64,000 nt of DNA, taken from the NCBI GenBank assembly GCA_026984935.1, contig JALSRD010000029.1, positions 1 through 64,000 on the forward strand. The letters run 5' to 3'. The notes under the pieces were generated by a model, which made no database searches, was not told where the DNA came from, and was given only the letters and a program-made list of their open reading frames with translations. Position numbers and translations under genes: made by a program. Of the stretch, positions 42,798 to 51,703 are shown piece after piece. The DNA is from Desulfobacterales bacterium (GTDB taxonomy: Bacteria; Desulfobacterota; Desulfobacteria; Desulfobacterales; JALSRD01). The number at the start of each line of letters is the position of its first letter. Position 1 is the stretch's first letter.

Positions 42798-42828
42798 GGG
42801 GCGCCTGATTTTCAGGCGCCCCTTTTTT
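42798..42828. terminator. Bidirectional intrinsic terminator
   Basis: An 11-bp GC-rich stem (42798-42808 with 42812-42822) has a 3-nt loop. A run of A precedes it and a run of six T follows, so it can end both mrp (plus) and the cytochrome operon (minus). Confidence 0.88.
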
Positions 42829-42859: not shown

Positions 42860-43525
42860 TCAGCTGCGCGCTTTCTTCTTGCCGGTGGTCTCCCAGTCGT
42901 AGACTTCGGTGGTTTCGAAGACCTCCTCCCAGCCGGTAATCATGGAGCGGATGTGGGCAAAAATGGTGTGGCCGGTGGTGGTCATGTAAACATGGATGAT
43001 CAGAAAGGCGATCAACAGAAAGGCCAGCACGGTGTGCACGACGGCTACGCCGCCGAGCGTCAAAAAGCGGTCCAACCCCCACTGGGGCCACTGGTTGTAC
43101 GTGTAGTACAGCAGACCGGCCGCCATCTGCACGGGCAGCATGGTGGTTACCAGTCCCAGATAAGTCAGGCGCTGCAGGGGGTTGTGCTTGGCGCCCGGGC
43201 TCTTCTGCACCGGATGGGGTTTTCCCATAAAGATGCCGAAACTGTAGTACCACATCACGGCGAACAGTTTCTTGGTGGTGGGCACGTACTGGCGCCATTC
43301 GCCGGTGGTCAGCACCCAGAAGACGATGAAAACAAAGAGCACGCCCCAGGTCAGTCCCATGAAGTTGTGGATTTCAACCGCATCTTCATATCCGAAAAGG
43401 GTATATGCGCCGTGGATCTCCAGGCCGGTGACGATCAGCGAAATAATCAGGAAGGCCTGCAGCCAGTGCCAGATGCGTTCAAAGCGTGAGTACAGGTAGA
43501 TGCGCTTCATTTTTGCGGCGTCCAT
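42860..43525 (-). CDS. Membrane cytochrome b (b561/hydrogenase-cytochrome-b type)
   Basis: The 221 residues carry four main hydrophobic segments (about 22-42, 60-78, 118-142, 158-182) and His residues suited to bind two b hemes. The N-terminal YSRFERIWHWLQAF is typical of the thiosulfate-reductase/formate-dehydrogenase cytochrome b family. It starts 3 bp after the octaheme cytochrome stop. It would exchange electrons between the quinone pool and the octaheme cytochrome. An ATG 15 bp downstream is an alternative start. Confidence 0.87.
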   Translation of the reverse strand: MDAAKMKRIYLYSRFERIWHWLQAFLIISLIVTGLEIHGAYTLFGYEDAVEIHNFMGLTWGVLFVFIVFWVLTTGEWRQYVPTTKKLFAVMWYYSFGIFMGKPHPVQKSPGAKHNPLQRLTYLGLVTTMLPVQMAAGLLYYTYNQWPQWGLDRFLTLGGVAVVHTVLAFLLIAFLIIHVYMTTTGHTIFAHIRSMITGWEEVFETTEVYDWETTGKKKARS

Positions 43526-43528
43526 GGC

Positions 43529-45181
43529 CTACTTTTTCCCTCCGTTCTTTTTGAAAATGAAACGGCCGAAGCCGTGCAGCAAAACGGCGGCCAGGCAGCC
43601 CAGCACCAGCAGCCATCCGCCGGTGTCGACGGCCTTGATGCGGTCGCGGCCGGGCATGTAGAATCCCGTCAGATTCGCCAGGCGGCTGTGGGGGCGCGTG
43701 TGGCATTCAGAGCAGGCCAGGGCCTGGTCCTTGGGCGCCACCATGTGCGTGCTGGGGAAAACGTATTCGGTTTTGACGAAACCGTACTTGCCGCTGAAGG
43801 GCAGGTCCAGATACTTCTGGCCGCGCGCAATGGCGTCCTGCCAGTTGAAGGTGGTCCAGTAGCCGTGTTCACCGGACAGCAGCGGCGCCAGCAGCTTGCT
43901 GCGCTCGATGTCGTAGGGCTGTTTGCCGCGGTGGACGTGAAAGGGAAAGATGCGCGCGTTGTGGTTCCCGCGGTTGCCCACCGGCCAGGCCAGGCGGATA
44001 ATCTTGGTTGGATCGATGCTGTCCTTCAGCGTCGGCCCGGAAAGCGAGCCGCTGTACCAGTAGTACTCGGGCCGCACGTTTTTGGCCCAGCGCGTGTCGC
44101 CCTTGGTGGACACGTAGGTGGGACGGTCATAGGGGCCCTTGACCTCGTAGGGCTTGCCGTTTTTCATTTTGCCGGCCTGGGACCAGTCCCACCACATCTG
44201 CACGGGCAGCACGCGCGCCACCGTGGGGATATGGCACGTCTGGCAGGCCACCTTGTCCGTGTGGTCGTTCATCTTGCTGCCGGCTTTGTGGGGCTTGGCA
44301 CTGTGGCAGGATTCGCACATGATCTTGGGGCTCAAATCGTTTTCGATGAGGCTCTTGCGGTTCTTGGCCGCCGGCGTGGCGTAAAAGCGCCCGGCGACGT
44401 TGTGGTTGATGGTGGTGTGGCAGCGCACGCACTGGAAGTTCTGGCCGTCGATGCCCATGTGCACGTCCAGGCTCTTGTGCGGAGTGGTCATGGAGGAATC
44501 CAGGTCGCCGTGCTTGACGCCGTCGCCGCCGCCGCCGGAAAAGTGGCAGGAGCCGCAGTTGCGGCGCGTGGGGCGGCCCACGGCCTGGGCGGCTTCCTGG
44601 ATTTCAGCCTGGGCTTCCTTGGCCATTTCCTTGTCGTCGGGGTCGCTGGATGTACTGAAGGCCTCGTAATCCCCGAAGGCTTCTTCGAAATTGAACTTCT
44701 TCTGGCCGTGGCAGCGCAGGCAGTCGATGGCCGCCGCCTTGCCCTTGCCGGCCCAGCCGATATGGCACTCGCTGCAGTGGTGATCGTGCATGGCGTTGGA
44801 GGACAGGCAGAAGTTGTTGACCGAATACTGGGCCTTGCCCTTGCGGTCGTTGGGCGGTGAGTTGGGATCGGTCCAGGTCCAGTGAAAGGTTTTTTTCAGC
44901 TGTTGGTCGGCTTTGGTGTGGCAGGACAGGCAGGCGCGCGTGATCTGGTCGCCCGACGTGAACACCTGCTGCAGCGCTTTGAGCTTGCTGTGGTCCACGG
45001 TGTTCCAGAAATGCCGTTGCTTGGTGGCCTGGTCGGCCAGCTGGCGGCCCGGCGCCTTTTCTTCCGCGGCAGCGGCTGGAGCAGCGGCCGTGGAAAGCAG
45101 CAACAGGCCGCTTGCCGCCAGGCAGGCCGTAAGGCACAAACATCGTTTTCCTGATAATCTCTCGAAAATAAATCGAAACAT
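43529..45181 (-). CDS. Octaheme cytochrome c, tetrathionate-reductase (OTR) family
   Basis: The 550-residue exported multiheme cytochrome has a signal peptide (about 1-40). It carries eight CxxCH motifs (CLSCH, CSECH, CLRCH, CGSCH, CVRCH, CESCH, CQTCH, CSECH). A C-terminal membrane anchor (about 522-542) is followed by Lys-rich residues. Family members reduce tetrathionate, hydroxylamine or nitrite in vitro; the true substrate is unsettled. GGAGG precedes the ATG. The anchor and adjacent cytochrome b point to a periplasmic quinone-linked reductase or oxidase. Confidence 0.92.
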   Translation of the reverse strand: MFRFIFERLSGKRCLCLTACLAASGLLLLSTAAAPAAAAEEKAPGRQLADQATKQRHFWNTVDHSKLKALQQVFTSGDQITRACLSCHTKADQQLKKTFHWTWTDPNSPPNDRKGKAQYSVNNFCLSSNAMHDHHCSECHIGWAGKGKAAAIDCLRCHGQKKFNFEEAFGDYEAFSTSSDPDDKEMAKEAQAEIQEAAQAVGRPTRRNCGSCHFSGGGGDGVKHGDLDSSMTTPHKSLDVHMGIDGQNFQCVRCHTTINHNVAGRFYATPAAKNRKSLIENDLSPKIMCESCHSAKPHKAGSKMNDHTDKVACQTCHIPTVARVLPVQMWWDWSQAGKMKNGKPYEVKGPYDRPTYVSTKGDTRWAKNVRPEYYWYSGSLSGPTLKDSIDPTKIIRLAWPVGNRGNHNARIFPFHVHRGKQPYDIERSKLLAPLLSGEHGYWTTFNWQDAIARGQKYLDLPFSGKYGFVKTEYVFPSTHMVAPKDQALACSECHTRPHSRLANLTGFYMPGRDRIKAVDTGGWLLVLGCLAAVLLHGFGRFIFKKNGGKK

Positions 45182-45299
45182 GACACCTCCCGCTTGACGG
45201 GTGGTGGGCGATTGCCCACAGATTCAGAGATTCAGGTGCCCCGGGACGGGGCGCCGGGCGCCGGTGCGGGCCTTTTGCCACGCAGCGGCGCTGCCGCGG

Positions 45300-45641
45300 T
45301 TATTTACACTTGGCCGGCGAGGGCGAGTCGGCCGCATGCGCCCGCAGATAGGCGTGGATGTTTTCCAGGTCCTTGTCGGACAGTTTGCTCCACTCCTCTT
45401 TGCATTTGAACTGGTCGAAATCCTTTTCCTCGAACACGCGGTCCCACTGGGCCATGGTCTTGGTGTCGGGGCTCAGAAAGGGCGTGGCGGACTCGACTTC
45501 ACCGCGTTTGTGGCAGGACTTGTAGACCTTGCGGTAGGTGTACTTGCCCTTGCGGGCGTTGGCCTTGGCGCTGGCCAGACAGACGCTGGCCGAGCTGAAG
45601 GCAAAAAGGACGGCAATGGCAGTAATGATCAGCTTTTTCAT
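45300..45641 (-). CDS. Small exported c-type-cytochrome-like protein with one-Cys heme motif
   Basis: The 113 residues from ATG 45641 (GGAGGG upstream) have a signal peptide ending near residue 24. A single heme-type site reads VYKSCH: the first Cys of CxxCH is Tyr. Other features (PLSPDTKTMAQW-like stretch, Leu/Tyr-rich end) fit a small cytochrome c. The Tyr codon TAC differs by one base from TGC. Either this protein attaches heme through one Cys, or it has lost covalent heme. A later Cys (FKCKEE) and the C-terminal CK are additional. It is the neighbour of OTR. Confidence 0.7.
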   Translation of the reverse strand: MKKLIITAIAVLFAFSSASVCLASAKANARKGKYTYRKVYKSCHKRGEVESATPFLSPDTKTMAQWDRVFEEKDFDQFKCKEEWSKLSDKDLENIHAYLRAHAADSPSPAKCK

Positions 45642-45794
45642 GGTGGTTCCCTCCATCTTTGCGATTTGAAAATTCAAAGCATTGAAATCTATATTTTCGG
45701 TTATTTTGATACGCTTCTTGAGGCCGAAGGTGGTATCCGCGTAAAAAGGCCGGATATCGTCCAAGGATTTGTCAACTTCCCTCCTGGCCGCGTC

Positions 45795-46109
45795 CTACAT
45801 GACGACGTAGCGGTCGACTTTTTCCACCATTTCGGCATGCCGGGCCTGGGTGGCGAAATCCTTGAACCCCACGCCGGGCACTTCCTCCTCGCGGCCGTGC
45901 AGTCCGTTGGCCCGGAAGCTGACGTCACAGATGGAGATCTTGGCCTTGCCGACCAGTTTTTTGAAATCCGGCGTGACCGTGAGCAGTACGGAGCGGCCGG
46001 TGAAAAAAATTTCGACCTGCTTGCCTTTGGCGTGGGCGGCTTCGGTCAGGTTGACGACGTAGTCCAGGTGCTTGTCGGAACTTACCAGAATACCCAGTGT
46101 TTCAGCCAT
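45795..46109 (-). CDS. DsrE-family sulfur carrier-like protein (with active-site Cys)
   Basis: This 104-residue DsrE/DsrF-like protein has the usual alpha/beta fold. Its single Cys in KISICDVSF is at the position where DsrE/TusD-type proteins bind sulfane sulfur. It lies in the middle of the sulfur operon, after a 146-bp gap that contains a GC-rich stem-loop (about 46137-46170) and before a 153-bp gap. It may accept sulfur from the TusA-like protein. Confidence 0.82.
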   Translation of the reverse strand: MAETLGILVSSDKHLDYVVNLTEAAHAKGKQVEIFFTGRSVLLTVTPDFKKLVGKAKISICDVSFRANGLHGREEEVPGVGFKDFATQARHAEMVEKVDRYVVM

Positions 46110-46255
46110 CGATATATCCTCTTGTTTTGCATGTGAGGGCAGCGTGCGCGTCCGTGCGCCGTGCTGCCTGCAATTGACTTGTCATGGAAAAATGTAAAAG
46201 AAGACGCTTTAACGAAATATGCCCCAAAAACGGCCGGCTGCCGGCGCTCCTGTGC

Positions 46256-46429
46256 CTACCACCAGCAGATTACCTTGTCATGGGCGAAGATGTCATCCAC
46301 CAGGGCCTGCCAATCCACATTGTCCTGGTACAGCGGCACGACGGTGGCGGTGTTTTTCTTGGAAATGGCGGCACTCAGCTTTTCCACCGTCTCATCGGGT
46401 TCCGAACGCAAGATGTGCAGTACTTTCAT
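46256..46429 (-). CDS. 57-residue DsrH/TusB-like protein
   Basis: Translating the minus strand from ATG 46429 gives MKVLHILRSEPDET at the start and an end of VDWQALVDDIF, then DKVICWW and a TAG stop at 46256. The start (xLHxLxxxP) and the VDW...F end recall DsrH/TusB proteins, which are longer. The middle is shorter. It has one Cys near the C-terminus. It lies 21 bp after the second DsrE-like gene, in the same direction. The small size makes it easy to miss. Confidence 0.65.
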   Translation of the reverse strand: MKVLHILRSEPDETVEKLSAAISKKNTATVVPLYQDNVDWQALVDDIFAHDKVICWW

Positions 46430-46450
46430 GGGGTCACCTCTGTCTTAAGC

Positions 46451-46738
46451 TCAAAAAGGTATGACGATACTGGCCGCATCCAGTTTTTCGGCCACCTCCG
46501 CCAACGTTACATATTGAAATCCGTATTTTTCCACGTTGGCCGAGTTGTTCGAGAAACGCTCGCCCTCCATCTCGTCCAGAAACTCCATGTTGTCGTGGTA
46601 GGCCTCGTCCATGTTGGCGATTTCGTGGTTTAAAACAAACATCTGGACTTCAGCCGACTCCAGCAACGCGCCGAGGCTGGTGCGCAGCCCCTCGTACTGC
46701 TGGTCGACGTCCCTGATCACAACGGCGATCTTTTTCAT
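46451..46738 (-). CDS. DsrE-like protein without cysteine
   Basis: The 95 residues begin MKKIAVVIRD and have a DsrE/DsrF-like alternation of strands and helices, ending in SIVIPF. It contains no Cys at all, so it cannot carry sulfur itself. In TusBCD-type complexes some subunits are structural, which could apply here. It lies 6 bp from the TusA gene. Confidence 0.75.
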   Translation of the reverse strand: MKKIAVVIRDVDQQYEGLRTSLGALLESAEVQMFVLNHEIANMDEAYHDNMEFLDEMEGERFSNNSANVEKYGFQYVTLAEVAEKLDAASIVIPF

Positions 46739-46744
46739 CGAAGC

Positions 46745-46990
46745 TTATCCTTTCTTGATAAAGTAGCGCGTGTAGCCCTCCGGATCATCGTAGAACCCCA
46801 GAAATTCGTTGCTGCCCTTGTTGGCGAAATCCGGGATGTCGTTTTTGGATCCGGGATCATCCCCCAAAACTTCCAGGATCTTTCCGGCATCCATCCCCTT
46901 GAGGGTTTTCTTGGTCTTGAGCATGGGCATGGGGCAGGTCAGACCGCGCGTATCCAGCGTGCTGTCGGCTTTGATTTCTTTCAGGTCCAT
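46745..46990 (-). CDS. TusA-like sulfur carrier protein
   Basis: The 81 residues have the TusA/SirA/YeeD fold with the conserved motif LDTRGLTCPMPML, whose Cys binds persulfide sulfur. A C-terminal FIKKG follows. YeeD/TusA proteins commonly partner YeeE/YedE transporters, whose gene lies immediately upstream (82 bp). It is the likely cytoplasmic acceptor of transported sulfur. Confidence 0.9.
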   Translation of the reverse strand: MDLKEIKADSTLDTRGLTCPMPMLKTKKTLKGMDAGKILEVLGDDPGSKNDIPDFANKGSNEFLGFYDDPEGYTRYFIKKG

Positions 46991-47072
46991 CTATAGTGCT
47001 CCTTTTGATAAATGGGTTGGCAGTTGAGAACGCGTCAAAAAGTTTGAAAAATCAAATGAACGGCATAACACT

Positions 47073-48263
47073 TTAAAAAACCACGAACTTTTCCGTTTCT
47101 TCGTTCCACATGGCCAAAAGCATCCAGAAGATGAAAAAGGCCAGCATCAGCGGGATGGTCAGCTGCCAGCTCAGGTACTTGGGCAGGAAAATATCCTTTC
47201 CCAGCCACTTGTTGAGCCCACTGACCTGCAACAGTTTACCGGTCATGGAGTTGGACAAAAGGAAGGTTACCAAGGTGCACATCAGCTTGGTCTGACCTTC
47301 CCCCACGCGCCACAGCGTGCTGGAGGCGCAGCCGCCGGCCAGCAGCATGCCGATGCCGAAGATGAATCCCCCGATGAGGCTGCCCATGAAAAAGGAATGG
47401 TAGATCCCCATGTTGGGCTCCTGCAGGTAGGCCCACTTGATGACCGCTGTGCCGCCGGTATATAAAATCAGGCTCAGGGCCACGGCTTTGACGGTGTCGG
47501 ATTCACCGGTCATGAACGGGCAGCGGAAGGCGCGCACGAAGCAGAACCGTGAGCGGTGCATCACCAGCCCGATGAGAAAGCCGAAGAACAGCCAGCCGCC
47601 CAGCTGGGTCTTATCGACGCTTCCGTAAACGTAGAAGGTCAGGACCACCACGGCGGCGACTATCCCACCGATCCAGGGCTGCACCCTGGGCCAGTCGATG
47701 CCCCCGGATTCTTTCGGCGGTTTGCGGGCCACGGCCCGGCTGGGCAGATGCTCCATTTCCCAGAGCAGGTACTTGAGGCCCACCCAGGCGCCGCCCATGA
47801 GACCGAACATCATGGCAAAGCCGCCGCCCGAGAACATGGCCACGGCGGAGTAAAAGCCGCCCACGTTGCAGCCCTTGGACATGGCTGCGCCGGCCCCCAT
47901 GAGGATGCCGCCCACCAGGCCCTTGGCGTACTCCAGGCGCGGCGCGCGGCGGATCTTGAAATCGCGCGCCAGCAGTGCCGAGGCAAAGGCGCCCAGCAGC
48001 AGTCCGAAGTTGGAGAGCGACACCGGGTGCAGCCAGGGGTTCAGCGGGCGTTCGTGGAAAATACCGGTCAGGTAGTAAACCCAGTCGCCCCAGTCGTGAT
48101 AACCGGCGGCGATGCCCCAGGGGCTCTGCCAGCAGAAGATCATCAGGGCGATGATGGCGATCAGGATGCCGGCCAGCCAAGTGGGCCACTGTTTTGTAAA
48201 GAGCATTTGGTAGGTGCTGTGCGCCTCGTCCTTGACGCTGTCCCAAAAACTTTCACTTGCCAT
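47073..48263 (-). CDS. YeeE/YedE-family sulfur (thiosulfate-type) transporter
   Basis: The 396-residue membrane protein has about nine to ten hydrophobic segments in two halves. Conserved Cys positions appear in SKGCNVGG, RSRFCFVRAF and GGCASSTLW. These match the sites in TsuA/YeeE proteins that pass thiosulfate through the membrane by thiol contacts (family knowledge). The gene precedes TusA, the usual partner. Substrate here may be thiosulfate or another sulfane compound. Confidence 0.88.
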   Translation of the reverse strand: MASESFWDSVKDEAHSTYQMLFTKQWPTWLAGILIAIIALMIFCWQSPWGIAAGYHDWGDWVYYLTGIFHERPLNPWLHPVSLSNFGLLLGAFASALLARDFKIRRAPRLEYAKGLVGGILMGAGAAMSKGCNVGGFYSAVAMFSGGGFAMMFGLMGGAWVGLKYLLWEMEHLPSRAVARKPPKESGGIDWPRVQPWIGGIVAAVVVLTFYVYGSVDKTQLGGWLFFGFLIGLVMHRSRFCFVRAFRCPFMTGESDTVKAVALSLILYTGGTAVIKWAYLQEPNMGIYHSFFMGSLIGGFIFGIGMLLAGGCASSTLWRVGEGQTKLMCTLVTFLLSNSMTGKLLQVSGLNKWLGKDIFLPKYLSWQLTIPLMLAFFIFWMLLAMWNEETEKFVVF

Positions 48264-48344
48264 GCTGGATGTGTCTCCGCTTGAGGGGATTTCTGTTGGT
48301 TCTTGCCGTTTCCCGCCGGCATTGCCGCTTAAATTAAGGGCGCG

Positions 48345-50054
48345 TTAGAAGCGCACCGTCGCTGACAGATAGCCGACCCACACCTTGTCGATGACCGGAA
48401 AGAGCGTATCGAAGGCCGTGGCTTCCGAGATCTTGACCGGCGCACCCAGCGGATTGCCGCTGCCGGTGTAGTCGTAGTCGTAGTACTGCCCGCCCAGCTG
48501 CAGGAAGAAATTGTCCTTGTAAATGGGCTGGATGTAGTAGGCTTCGAAGACGTTGCCGCGGGCCGCGATTTTACTGGCCACCAGGGAGTCTTCGGCGCCG
48601 GTAAACGGGAACCAGTACTTGGAACCGTAATTATACTCGATTCCCAGGCGAGCGTCAAACGGCATGGGAAAGATGGCGCCGGCATAGACGCTGTAGCCGT
48701 TGTGGCTCTCCAATTGTCCGTTGGAACTCAACAGGCCCACACCCATCAGCTCGTAAAACGGATTTTTGGAAAAGTCGGAGGGATCCGTGTGGGACCAGGA
48801 GCCGGCGACAAAAAAGTCGATGTCCGCGAACTGGTCGGCGAAGTTCGTGCGAAACAGCATGGAGGCCGCATCCCAGTCGCCGATATTGTTGGTCGGCTCC
48901 ATGCGGCTGATAAAGGCCCCGGAATTGGGGGTGAAGCTGAACTGGCCGCTGTCGTTTTTGGAAACGATGAAAGGCATGACCGTCAGGCCGGTGAAGCCGT
49001 CGGTGATGTCGAAACCGCGCGCGTAACTGAATACCAGGCTGCTGACGTCGTCATCGTACAAGGTGGCGATGAAGCCGGCCAGGTGCACATCGTTGACTTC
49101 GGGCGTGGAGATCCCCAGGCTGGAGGCGTTGCCGAAACCGCCTTCGAAACCCAGACCGTAGCAAAGTTTCAGGGCCGCGCCGGGAATGCCGGTGACGTCT
49201 TCTAAACCGAAATTCAACGAAGCACCGTCGAACTGCCAGTTGATGATGGTGGCCAGCGGTGATCCACCCTCCAGGCTGTAATTGCGATACTCCAGGGGCG
49301 GTCCCTCGGTGGAGGGGCGGCGGCCCAAAGAGATATTGATGGGAATGTCGCCCACCGGGCGGTGGTAGTTGAAGTAGGCCCGCTCCAAACGAATCGTGTC
49401 GCCGTGGGGCAGGCTGGAGGTATTGCCGTCCAGGGTGACATCGCTCAGACTGCCGTTGTTGAACTTGACGCCCGTGCTGTCGCCGAACACCTTGTAGGCC
49501 GCCATGCGGCCGGCAAAGTTCAAATGGTTGTTGATTTTGGCTTTCATGTTCAGGCGGAAGCGGTTGGTGTAGATAATGTTGTTGTCGACGTCCTGTTTGT
49601 CCGGGGCAGGCACCATGCCGGCAGCCGCCATGGCGGCCATGCCCTGCTGGATCTGCTGGGCGGTGGCGCCGTTGAAGCCGGCCGGCGGCGGGGCAAAAAA
49701 TCCGCTTATTACTGGCGCTGGCGCGCTCAGCATGTCTTTGTAGTGAATGGAATCGGCCCTGGATCTGAGCTCAAAGCCAAAGGAGAGTTTGTCCGTGGCC
49801 GTGTGAATCTCGTTTTTGCTGATGCGCTGGTCCATTTCCTTGATGTCGGCTTTTTTCTTGGCCTCGGCTTTCTCCAGCTTGTCGAGTTTTTCTTCCAGCT
49901 TCATCATCTTTTGGGTGAGCTGCTGAAGTTCCTGTTTGAGATCTTCGACTTCACCGGCAAATACGCTACTGGCCGGTAGGAAGAACGTGAGCAGAAACAG
50001 AAAAACAGCCGCCCAGGTCGTACCTTTGAGCTTGGCGTTGGAAGGCTCTGTCAT
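48345..50054 (-). CDS. DUF3373-type outer-membrane beta-barrel porin
   Basis: The 569 residues from ATG 50054 (GGAGG upstream) show a signal peptide ending near SVFAG, then a coiled coil (about 35-80) of Leu/Lys/Glu repeats. A long beta-strand-rich region then ends in Phe (LSATVRF), as outer-membrane barrels do. DUF3373 proteins are common in sulfur-metabolising anaerobes with no assigned role. It is the first gene of the minus-strand sulfur operon, so it may admit the sulfur substrate. Confidence 0.8.
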   Translation of the reverse strand: MTEPSNAKLKGTTWAAVFLFLLTFFLPASSVFAGEVEDLKQELQQLTQKMMKLEEKLDKLEKAEAKKKADIKEMDQRISKNEIHTATDKLSFGFELRSRADSIHYKDMLSAPAPVISGFFAPPPAGFNGATAQQIQQGMAAMAAAGMVPAPDKQDVDNNIIYTNRFRLNMKAKINNHLNFAGRMAAYKVFGDSTGVKFNNGSLSDVTLDGNTSSLPHGDTIRLERAYFNYHRPVGDIPINISLGRRPSTEGPPLEYRNYSLEGGSPLATIINWQFDGASLNFGLEDVTGIPGAALKLCYGLGFEGGFGNASSLGISTPEVNDVHLAGFIATLYDDDVSSLVFSYARGFDITDGFTGLTVMPFIVSKNDSGQFSFTPNSGAFISRMEPTNNIGDWDAASMLFRTNFADQFADIDFFVAGSWSHTDPSDFSKNPFYELMGVGLLSSNGQLESHNGYSVYAGAIFPMPFDARLGIEYNYGSKYWFPFTGAEDSLVASKIAARGNVFEAYYIQPIYKDNFFLQLGGQYYDYDYTGSGNPLGAPVKISEATAFDTLFPVIDKVWVGYLSATVRF

Positions 50055-50329: not shown

Positions 50330-51703
50330 ATGGATATCGGCAGGTATTGGAAGACCATCGTCGACACCTTGAAGGATGGCGTCATGGTGATCGACACGCG
50401 GGGGCGCATCCAGGCCGTCAATCCGGCGGCCGAGCGGATGACCGGCTATTCCGAGAAAGAGCTCATCGGCAAGTCCTGCAAAATCCTGAACTGCACGGGT
50501 TGCAGGATAAGGGGCATGGGCACCGGCGAACAATGGTGCCGTCTATTTTCGGTCGGAAAATCCAGGGACAAAAAGTGCCTCATCACGACCCGTGATCGGC
50601 GGGTGGTGCACATTGTCAAAAGCGCGGCCGTGCTGCGAAATCCGGATGGGGAATGCATCGGTGCGGTTGAAACGCTGACCAACATGTCGGAAATCATCCG
50701 CAAGCAGCGTGAAATCGAGTCGCTGCGCACCACCTGCAGCCTGAACGAGGGCTACCACGGGCTGCTGGGGAACTCCGTACCTATGAAAAACCTCTATGAA
50801 ATTATCGACAATGTCTCCCAGTCCCAGGCGCCGGTGCTCATCCATGGCGAAAGCGGCAGCGGCAAGGAACTGATTGCACGCGCCATCCACTCCGCCGGGC
50901 CGCGCTGTGACAAACCCTTCCTCAAAGTGAACTGCGCCGCGCTCAATGAAAACCTGCTGGAAAGCGAACTTTTCGGGCATGTCAAGGGCGCCTACACCGG
51001 TGCCAGTCAGATGCGTGTGGGCCGTTTCGAAGCGGCCCACGAAGGCACCATCTTCCTGGATGAGATCGGTGACATCCCCTTGGCCACCCAGGTGAAGCTG
51101 CTGCGGGTGCTGGAAGAGATGAAAATCGAGCGGGTGGGGGACAACACCCCCGTTGCCGTGGATGTACGTGTCGTCACAGCCACGAACAGAGATATCGAGG
51201 ATCTGATCAATCGTGGCCAGTTCCGCCAGGATTTTTACTTTCGCATCAGCGTCTTCCCGCTGAAATGCCCGTCGCTGCGTGAGCGCCGTGAAGACATCCC
51301 GCTGATCGCCCAGCATTTTATCAGCCGCAATGCCATGAAAACCGGGAAAAAGATCCTGGGCATGACTTCCGAGGCCATGCGCAAAATGTTAAGCTATACT
51401 TGGCCGGGGAATGTCCGTGAACTGCGCAATGCCATCGAATACGCCTTTGTCCTGTGCACCGGCGGGGCCATCGGCATCGAACACCTGCCGCCCAAAATCG
51501 CCGCCGGCGGGGATGCGCCGCCAAAGGCACCGAGACCGCTGGAGGCCGGGGATGCGGAACGTCGGCAGCTGATCGAGGTGCTGCGCCAGACTGGCGGCAA
51601 CCAGTCGGAAGCGGCGCGGCGGCTGGGCGTCAGCCGCGTGACCGTCTGGAAACGGATGAAGAAATACGGCCTTAGGGCACGGCCGCTGAGGGGGCAGGCA
51701 TGA
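50330..51703 (+). CDS. PAS-containing sigma-54-dependent activator
   Basis: The 457 residues have an N-terminal PAS domain (about 5-125) with five Cys at 50, 55, 58, 70 and 83 (C-x4-C-x2-C pattern, then WCRLF and KKC), which could bind a metal, an Fe-S cluster or sense redox. The AAA+ domain (about 145-375) has Walker A 173-180 (GESGSGKE) and the sigma-54 contact loop GAYTGA. The Fis-type HTH ([20 protein letters not shown]) ends the protein. It is divergent from the sulfur operon and probably activates it. Confidence 0.93.

Follow-up and report, generated by a model that had tools for sequence, protein, structure and literature searches.

The gene arrangement closest to the one described here is the YTD gene cluster (Umezawa 2020, as cited; PMC9751629, PMC8780430 and PMC13047784). 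In May 2026, three proteins of this kind were named DsrEFH type II and found in 985 genomes, most of which carry reductive dsrAB, and the cable-bacterium DsrEFH II was reported to relay sulfur in vitro from TusA through DsrE to DsrC (PMC13293266). The DsrH of cable bacteria has no conserved cysteine (PMC13047784). Other described systems resemble parts of the locus, namely TsuA-TsuB of Spirochaeta thermophila (6LEO, 8J4C), the octaheme tetrathionate reductase (OTR) of Shewanella (1SP3), the OTR-cytochrome b pair of Thermosulfurimonas dismutans (PMC4911364), and a porin-YeeE-sulfurtransferase locus of Desulfurivibrio dismutans (PMC12142623). In vitro, OTR acts on nitrite and hydroxylamine, as cited in PMC4911364; an established physiological substrate of OTR was not found in the literature searched.

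Here we analyze a locus from a 64,000-nucleotide stretch of a Desulfobacterales genome (hereafter, the window), in which the YTD genes are joined by genes for an outer-membrane protein, a small periplasmic protein, an OTR and a cytochrome b.

Results

Layout and regulatory signals of the operon

The minus strand of the window from position 50054 to 42860 is filled by nine genes, as the original prediction had it; the positions of the open reading frames were checked and the products were scored against Pfam and NCBIfam. The intergenic gaps are 3-22 bp long between the OTR and cytochrome b genes, between tusA and the DsrF-like gene, and between the DsrF- and DsrH-like genes, and about 80-153 bp elsewhere. 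Extra promoters could be located within the gaps of 118-153 bp that precede the DsrE-like, CytM and OTR genes.

The unit also takes in a divergent activator gene, a promoter-like site and a 3' terminator. The activator (50330..51703, plus strand) is a sigma-54 activator with PAS, AAA+ and Fis domains recognized by Pfam. Its orthologues, with 50-74% identity, adjoin most OTR loci, and cysteines 50, 55, 58, 70 and 83 of the PAS region are identical in all 37 sequences. A motif scan of the region between the activator and the operon identified a -24/-12 sigma-54 promoter-like site, TTGGCACAAAATTTGAT, on the minus strand (50189-50173). Such a site beats 95% of shuffles (p <= 0.05) in 45 of the 50 activator-operon gaps, some of which are duplicates; the GC of the -12 element is degenerate in the site of the window and in a genome of the same genus. 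Downstream of the cytochrome b gene and ahead of the convergent mrp, hairpin prediction places a Rho-independent terminator (42798..42822, minus strand) that consists of the perfect hairpin GGGGCGCCTGA-AAA-TCAGGCGCCCC followed by T6, with a predicted energy of -29.9 kcal/mol including the flanks. Within the operon, between the DsrH- and DsrE-like genes (46245-46233), there is a small hairpin with a T-rich tail, a possible attenuator the strength of which is at chance level. Elsewhere in the same genome (L202:6824-8741, contig C64), another activator with this type of cysteine-rich PAS region adjoins two TusA-like genes and Hdr/Qmo-like genes, an arrangement that suggests a related sulfur regulon.

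The sulfur-transfer core

Five consecutive genes of the operon form its core. The first encodes a YeeE/YedE-family sulfur transporter (47073..48263; PF04143, E 1e-51) whose two halves come in the opposite order to those of TsuA; it was aligned to 6LEO as two swapped blocks. Its Cys132, Cys241 and Cys312 correspond to the relay cysteines of TsuA and are identical in 33 of 33 sequences. Thus, the transporter shares with TsuA-TsuB the YeeE fold family, the three relay cysteines and a TusA-type partner, but differs in the order of the halves and scores well under the NCBIfam TsuA equivalog (110.5 bits against a cut-off of 400). The second product is a TusA sulfur carrier with a CPMP motif (46745..46990; PF01206, E 8e-24).

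The remaining three are the putative subunits of a DsrEFH type II complex. The DsrF-like subunit of 95 amino acids (46451..46738) has no Pfam or NCBIfam match above the cut-off and was recognized by its conserved synteny with the YTD genes for conserved hypothetical proteins. Synteny and alignment identify the DsrH-like subunit of 57 amino acids (46256..46429), which has no Pfam or NCBIfam match above the cut-off and, in the alignment, no conserved cysteine. The DsrE-like subunit (45795..46109) matches PF02635 below the cut-off (E 0.016); its Cys61 is invariant in 13 aligned sequences and is considered equivalent to Cys67 of E. aureum by synteny rather than by direct alignment. Profile searches of the PDB returned only weak matches for the DsrE-like protein, DsrE 3pnx among them, and no structure of the DsrE/F kind for the DsrF-like protein, so that the assignment to DsrEFH rests on synteny and published models. 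The proteins originally described as two DsrE-like proteins are, more precisely, one DsrE-like and one DsrF-like subunit, both of the DsrEFH type II kind.

With yeeE, tusA, a dsrE-like gene and two adjacent conserved small genes, the gene content is that of YTD, and the five core genes are the known YTD cluster, alias yeeE-tusA-dsrEFH type II. Accordingly, the core is not new, and the earlier view that no system with this set had been described does not stand (PMC9751629, PMC8780430, PMC13047784, PMC13293266). The locus shares with the described clusters the DsrE cysteine, the lack of a conserved DsrH cysteine and reductive-type dsr genes in the genome; it differs in the order of the core genes (Y-T-F-H-E) and in the addition of DUF3373, CytM, OTR and cytochrome b, together with a sigma-54 activator of its own. 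The genome encodes a dsrA above the cut-off, dsrB, DsrD, aprA and qmo-like genes, with one OTR and one DsrF; judging from the presence of DsrD, its dsrAB is probably of the reductive type. Among other YTD loci, DsrEFH type II genes adjoin a DsrK-like gene in L064, L067, L073 and L088, in three cases together with a FadL-type outer-membrane protein, and a 159-amino-acid protein that belongs to no family is encoded between DsrH and DsrE in several loci (L057:7597-8076 and relatives).

The outer-membrane protein and CytM

The first gene of the operon encodes a DUF3373 outer-membrane protein with a signal peptide, a coiled coil and a beta barrel (48345..50054; PF11853, E 6e-126). The AlphaFold model, which is of moderate confidence (pLDDT 71), consists of the coiled coil and a barrel that is predicted to be porin-like: Foldseek matched it to the OmpF, PorB and OmpM1 porins (E ~1e-9), with low full-length TM-scores (0.35-0.40). 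An MtrB-type electron conduit was also considered for DUF3373 and is not favored because the best Foldseek matches are solute porins. As in the D. dismutans locus, where porin and YeeE genes are found together and polysulfide import has been proposed, the porin-like gene here is next to yeeE; the likeness, taken at the level of gene content, ends with OTR and DsrEFH, which are unreported there (PMC12142623).

The small protein encoded between the DsrE-like subunit and OTR, CytM (45300..45641), is identified through its orthologues and a motif table as a periplasmic relative of monoheme cytochromes c that has lost the heme motif, with YKSCH in place of CXXCH. It scores under the PF13442 cut-off, which the heme-bearing orthologues pass. 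The orthologues come in two forms, with either CXXCH or [YFW]xxC at the same place. Among the 33 sequences of the heme-less form (duplicates included), the cysteine is followed by H 12 times, by M 8 times, by N 7 times, by F 3 times, by A twice and by Q once, and three cysteines are kept throughout. The heme-less proteins make up one side of a single branch with support of 100/93. An OTR is present at 31 of their 33 loci, and none of them adjoins PhsA. The model of CytM is helical (pLDDT 86), and its Foldseek matches to cytochromes c are weak and non-significant, so that the kinship with cytochrome c rests on the heme-bearing orthologues. Because the histidine after the cysteine is not conserved in the clade, the heme binding originally predicted for this one-Cys protein is unsupported. 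A periplasmic cytochrome c by origin, CytM now offers three cysteines, with which it perhaps partners OTR in a thiol or sulfur role.

OTR, cytochrome b and their exchange for a PhsA-type enzyme

The octaheme cytochrome c (43529..45181) belongs to the OTR family (TIGR04315, 505 bits against a cut-off of 375) and contains eight CXXCH motifs and a C-terminal membrane helix. In an alignment of 427 residues, its Lys223 corresponds to Lys153 of 1SP3, the ligand to the catalytic heme, and is a lysine in 33 of 33 sequences. The last gene encodes a membrane cytochrome b of the b561/PhsC-like kind (42860..43525; PF01292, E 4e-30), with conserved histidines and a match below the cut-off to NF011582, the thiosulfate reductase cytochrome b. 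The identities originally proposed for DUF3373, YeeE/YedE, TusA, OTR and cytochrome b are thus borne out by Pfam or NCBIfam matches. The eight hemes, the lysine ligand and the adjoining cytochrome b are shared with the Shewanella enzyme and the T. dismutans pair (PMC4911364), whereas the C-terminal membrane helix and an operon context that includes a porin and sulfur carriers of the cytoplasm set the locus analyzed here apart.

In three loci (L129, L131, L136), CytM is followed by a PhsA-type molybdoenzyme that occupies the slot of OTR and cytochrome b, and one locus (L121, on the same contig as L055) contains both OTR and the PhsA-type enzyme. The PhsA-type enzyme, scored on the L055 copy, is below the cut-off of NF012032 (523 against 694 bits). 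The replacement of OTR-cytochrome b by this enzyme supports a common role as periplasmic sulfur reductases.

Two further variations were seen at related loci. A different octaheme protein of 640 amino acids, above the cut-off of no octaheme enzyme family, adjoins YTD genes in L060:4910-6832 and L065:11531-13453, and divergent DsrH or DsrE copies are present in OTR loci without yeeE and tusA (L101, L105, L109, L090), the DsrE of L105 lacking the cysteine. Membership in the Geobacter Ext selenite operon was rejected, given that the rhodanese and second-octaheme proteins score far under the ExtH, ExtN and ExtO cut-offs.

Conservation across genomes

We compared the positions of OTR and DsrF across 146 genomes of the order Desulfobacterales. 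A typical OTR is located within 10 kb of 12 of the 39 DsrF loci (one of these 12 DsrF matches being weak), compared to about 0.2 expected under random placement, and these 12 loci are spread over eight families; the binomial figure for this comparison treats the genomes as if they were unrelated. Gene neighborhoods were read for 60 loci and for 80 named loci, two sets that are not additive because several contigs occur in both. The full nine-gene order recurs in at least seven other genomes (L118, L119, L122, L123, L125, L126, L133), with further loci broken by contig ends; L125 is from Desulfosarcina widdelii and has an extra rhodanese lipoprotein within the order, and L126 is from D. cetonica. 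The search of related genomes for the same gene order thus came out in favor of the original prediction, and the nine-gene set is far above chance.

Among the 34 well-covered named loci, the activator and CytM are present in all 13 that bear DUF3373, and OTR or a PhsA-type enzyme is found within 8 kb in 12 of these; in the 13th, from Desulfocicer vacuolatum, OTR is about 9 kb off, in a divergent unit. The extension of YTD by DUF3373, CytM, OTR and cytochrome b is conserved. Close OTR-YTD pairing was not seen beyond Desulfobacterales among the loci scanned; in Desulfohalobiaceae, YTD occurs together with DUF3373, CytM and PhsA.

The association is modular. Many OTR loci without YTD consist of the activator, CytM, a three-domain rhodanese lipoprotein (PF00581), OTR and cytochrome b, and many YTD loci lack OTR. 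Because units of OTR, activator and CytM are common without YTD, the OTR-YTD link is optional. Parsimony on the OTR tree requires 8 changes in DsrF presence, at least 4 of which are forced by well-supported branches. The joint operon was not found described in the open-access literature, which was searched for OTR with YTD and for DUF3373; within the text searched, the arrangement is a previously undescribed, conserved extension of a known cluster.

Discussion

The results presented here are, on balance, best explained by a nine-gene operon under sigma-54 control, with which a Dsr-bearing Desulfobacterales bacterium makes dissimilatory use of a sulfane-sulfur compound (thiosulfate, tetrathionate or polysulfide), an explanation that we hold with moderate confidence. 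What we infer for the substrate, for the direction in which electrons flow, for the hand-over of sulfur and for the role of CytM is as follows. A sulfur anion would enter via the DUF3373 porin, and electrons from menaquinol would pass through cytochrome b to OTR for the periplasmic reduction of an oxidized sulfur species, most likely of tetrathionate to thiosulfate, with CytM as a putative three-cysteine thiol or sulfur partner of OTR. YeeE would move thiosulfate or sulfane sulfur inward over its three cysteines to TusA, from which Cys61 of DsrE, in the DsrEFH type II complex, would, by analogy, hand sulfur on to DsrC and DsrAB, where sulfur oxidation may take place. Of the original interpretation, a single sulfur-transfer unit tied to OTR and cytochrome b stands, and this unit is regulated and conserved; the heme binding by the small protein does not stand. 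The unit is supported by the recurring gene order, the porin-like model of DUF3373, the conserved cysteines of YeeE and lysine of OTR, and the alternation of OTR-cytochrome b with enzymes of the thiosulfate-polysulfide reductase type.

The in vitro activity on nitrite and hydroxylamine (cited in PMC4911364) and the many genomes in which the OTR unit stands without YTD would fit a general detoxifying or respiratory reductase for nitrite, hydroxylamine or other oxidants, formed by OTR and cytochrome b and sharing only the regulator with YTD. However, the slots of the unit are filled by sulfur proteins throughout, with the rhodanese lipoprotein in YTD-less loci and the PhsA-type enzyme in the place of OTR, and the presence of DsrF changed repeatedly on the OTR tree, as repeated pairing predicts. 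A pairing that recurs and an exchange of like for like speak for a common sulfur function, and we consider such a general reductase unlikely. To a similar degree, we regard it as improbable that the operon is a sulfur-oxidation module, in which sulfane sulfur is imported and Dsr operates in reverse, with OTR-cytochrome b either acting as a thiosulfate dehydrogenase or uninvolved, although an oxidation capacity is what the DsrEFH type II study prefers for sulfate reducers (PMC13293266). The cytochrome b and the PhsA-type partners suit reduction instead. Moreover, quinone-linked oxidation of thiosulfate would be unfavorable, given that the potential of the tetrathionate/thiosulfate couple is well above that of menaquinone.

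Sulfane-sulfur use, as we prefer to read the operon, also has a narrower, non-exclusive form, in which the full operon marks disproportionation and places both half reactions, reduction in the periplasm and oxidation in the cytoplasm, under one switch. YTD and tetrathionate-reductase-type proteins increase in D. dissulfuricans during thiosulfate disproportionation; however, the cluster is absent from many disproportionators and present in non-disproportionators, and we regard this form as rather doubtful. Spelled out, and no less tentatively, a sulfur- or redox-sensing activator might control in a single operon both halves of disproportionation, that is, a quinol-linked octaheme reductase in the periplasm and a sulfane relay in the cytoplasm that feeds the Dsr pathway, with CytM as a heme-free cysteine carrier that partners OTR.

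The exchange of OTR-cytochrome b and the PhsA-type enzyme at one position points to a sulfur, not a nitrogen, substrate for OTR in this clade. The clade of heme-free CytM proteins cleanly illustrates that a cytochrome c can lose its heme and still be conserved. The meaning of YTD, or DsrEFH type II, is disputed, being taken either as a marker of disproportionation or as a marker of sulfur oxidation. The conserved OTR-YTD operon, which is also present in cultured Desulfosarcina, would allow one genetic test to address both the role of YTD and the substrate of OTR.
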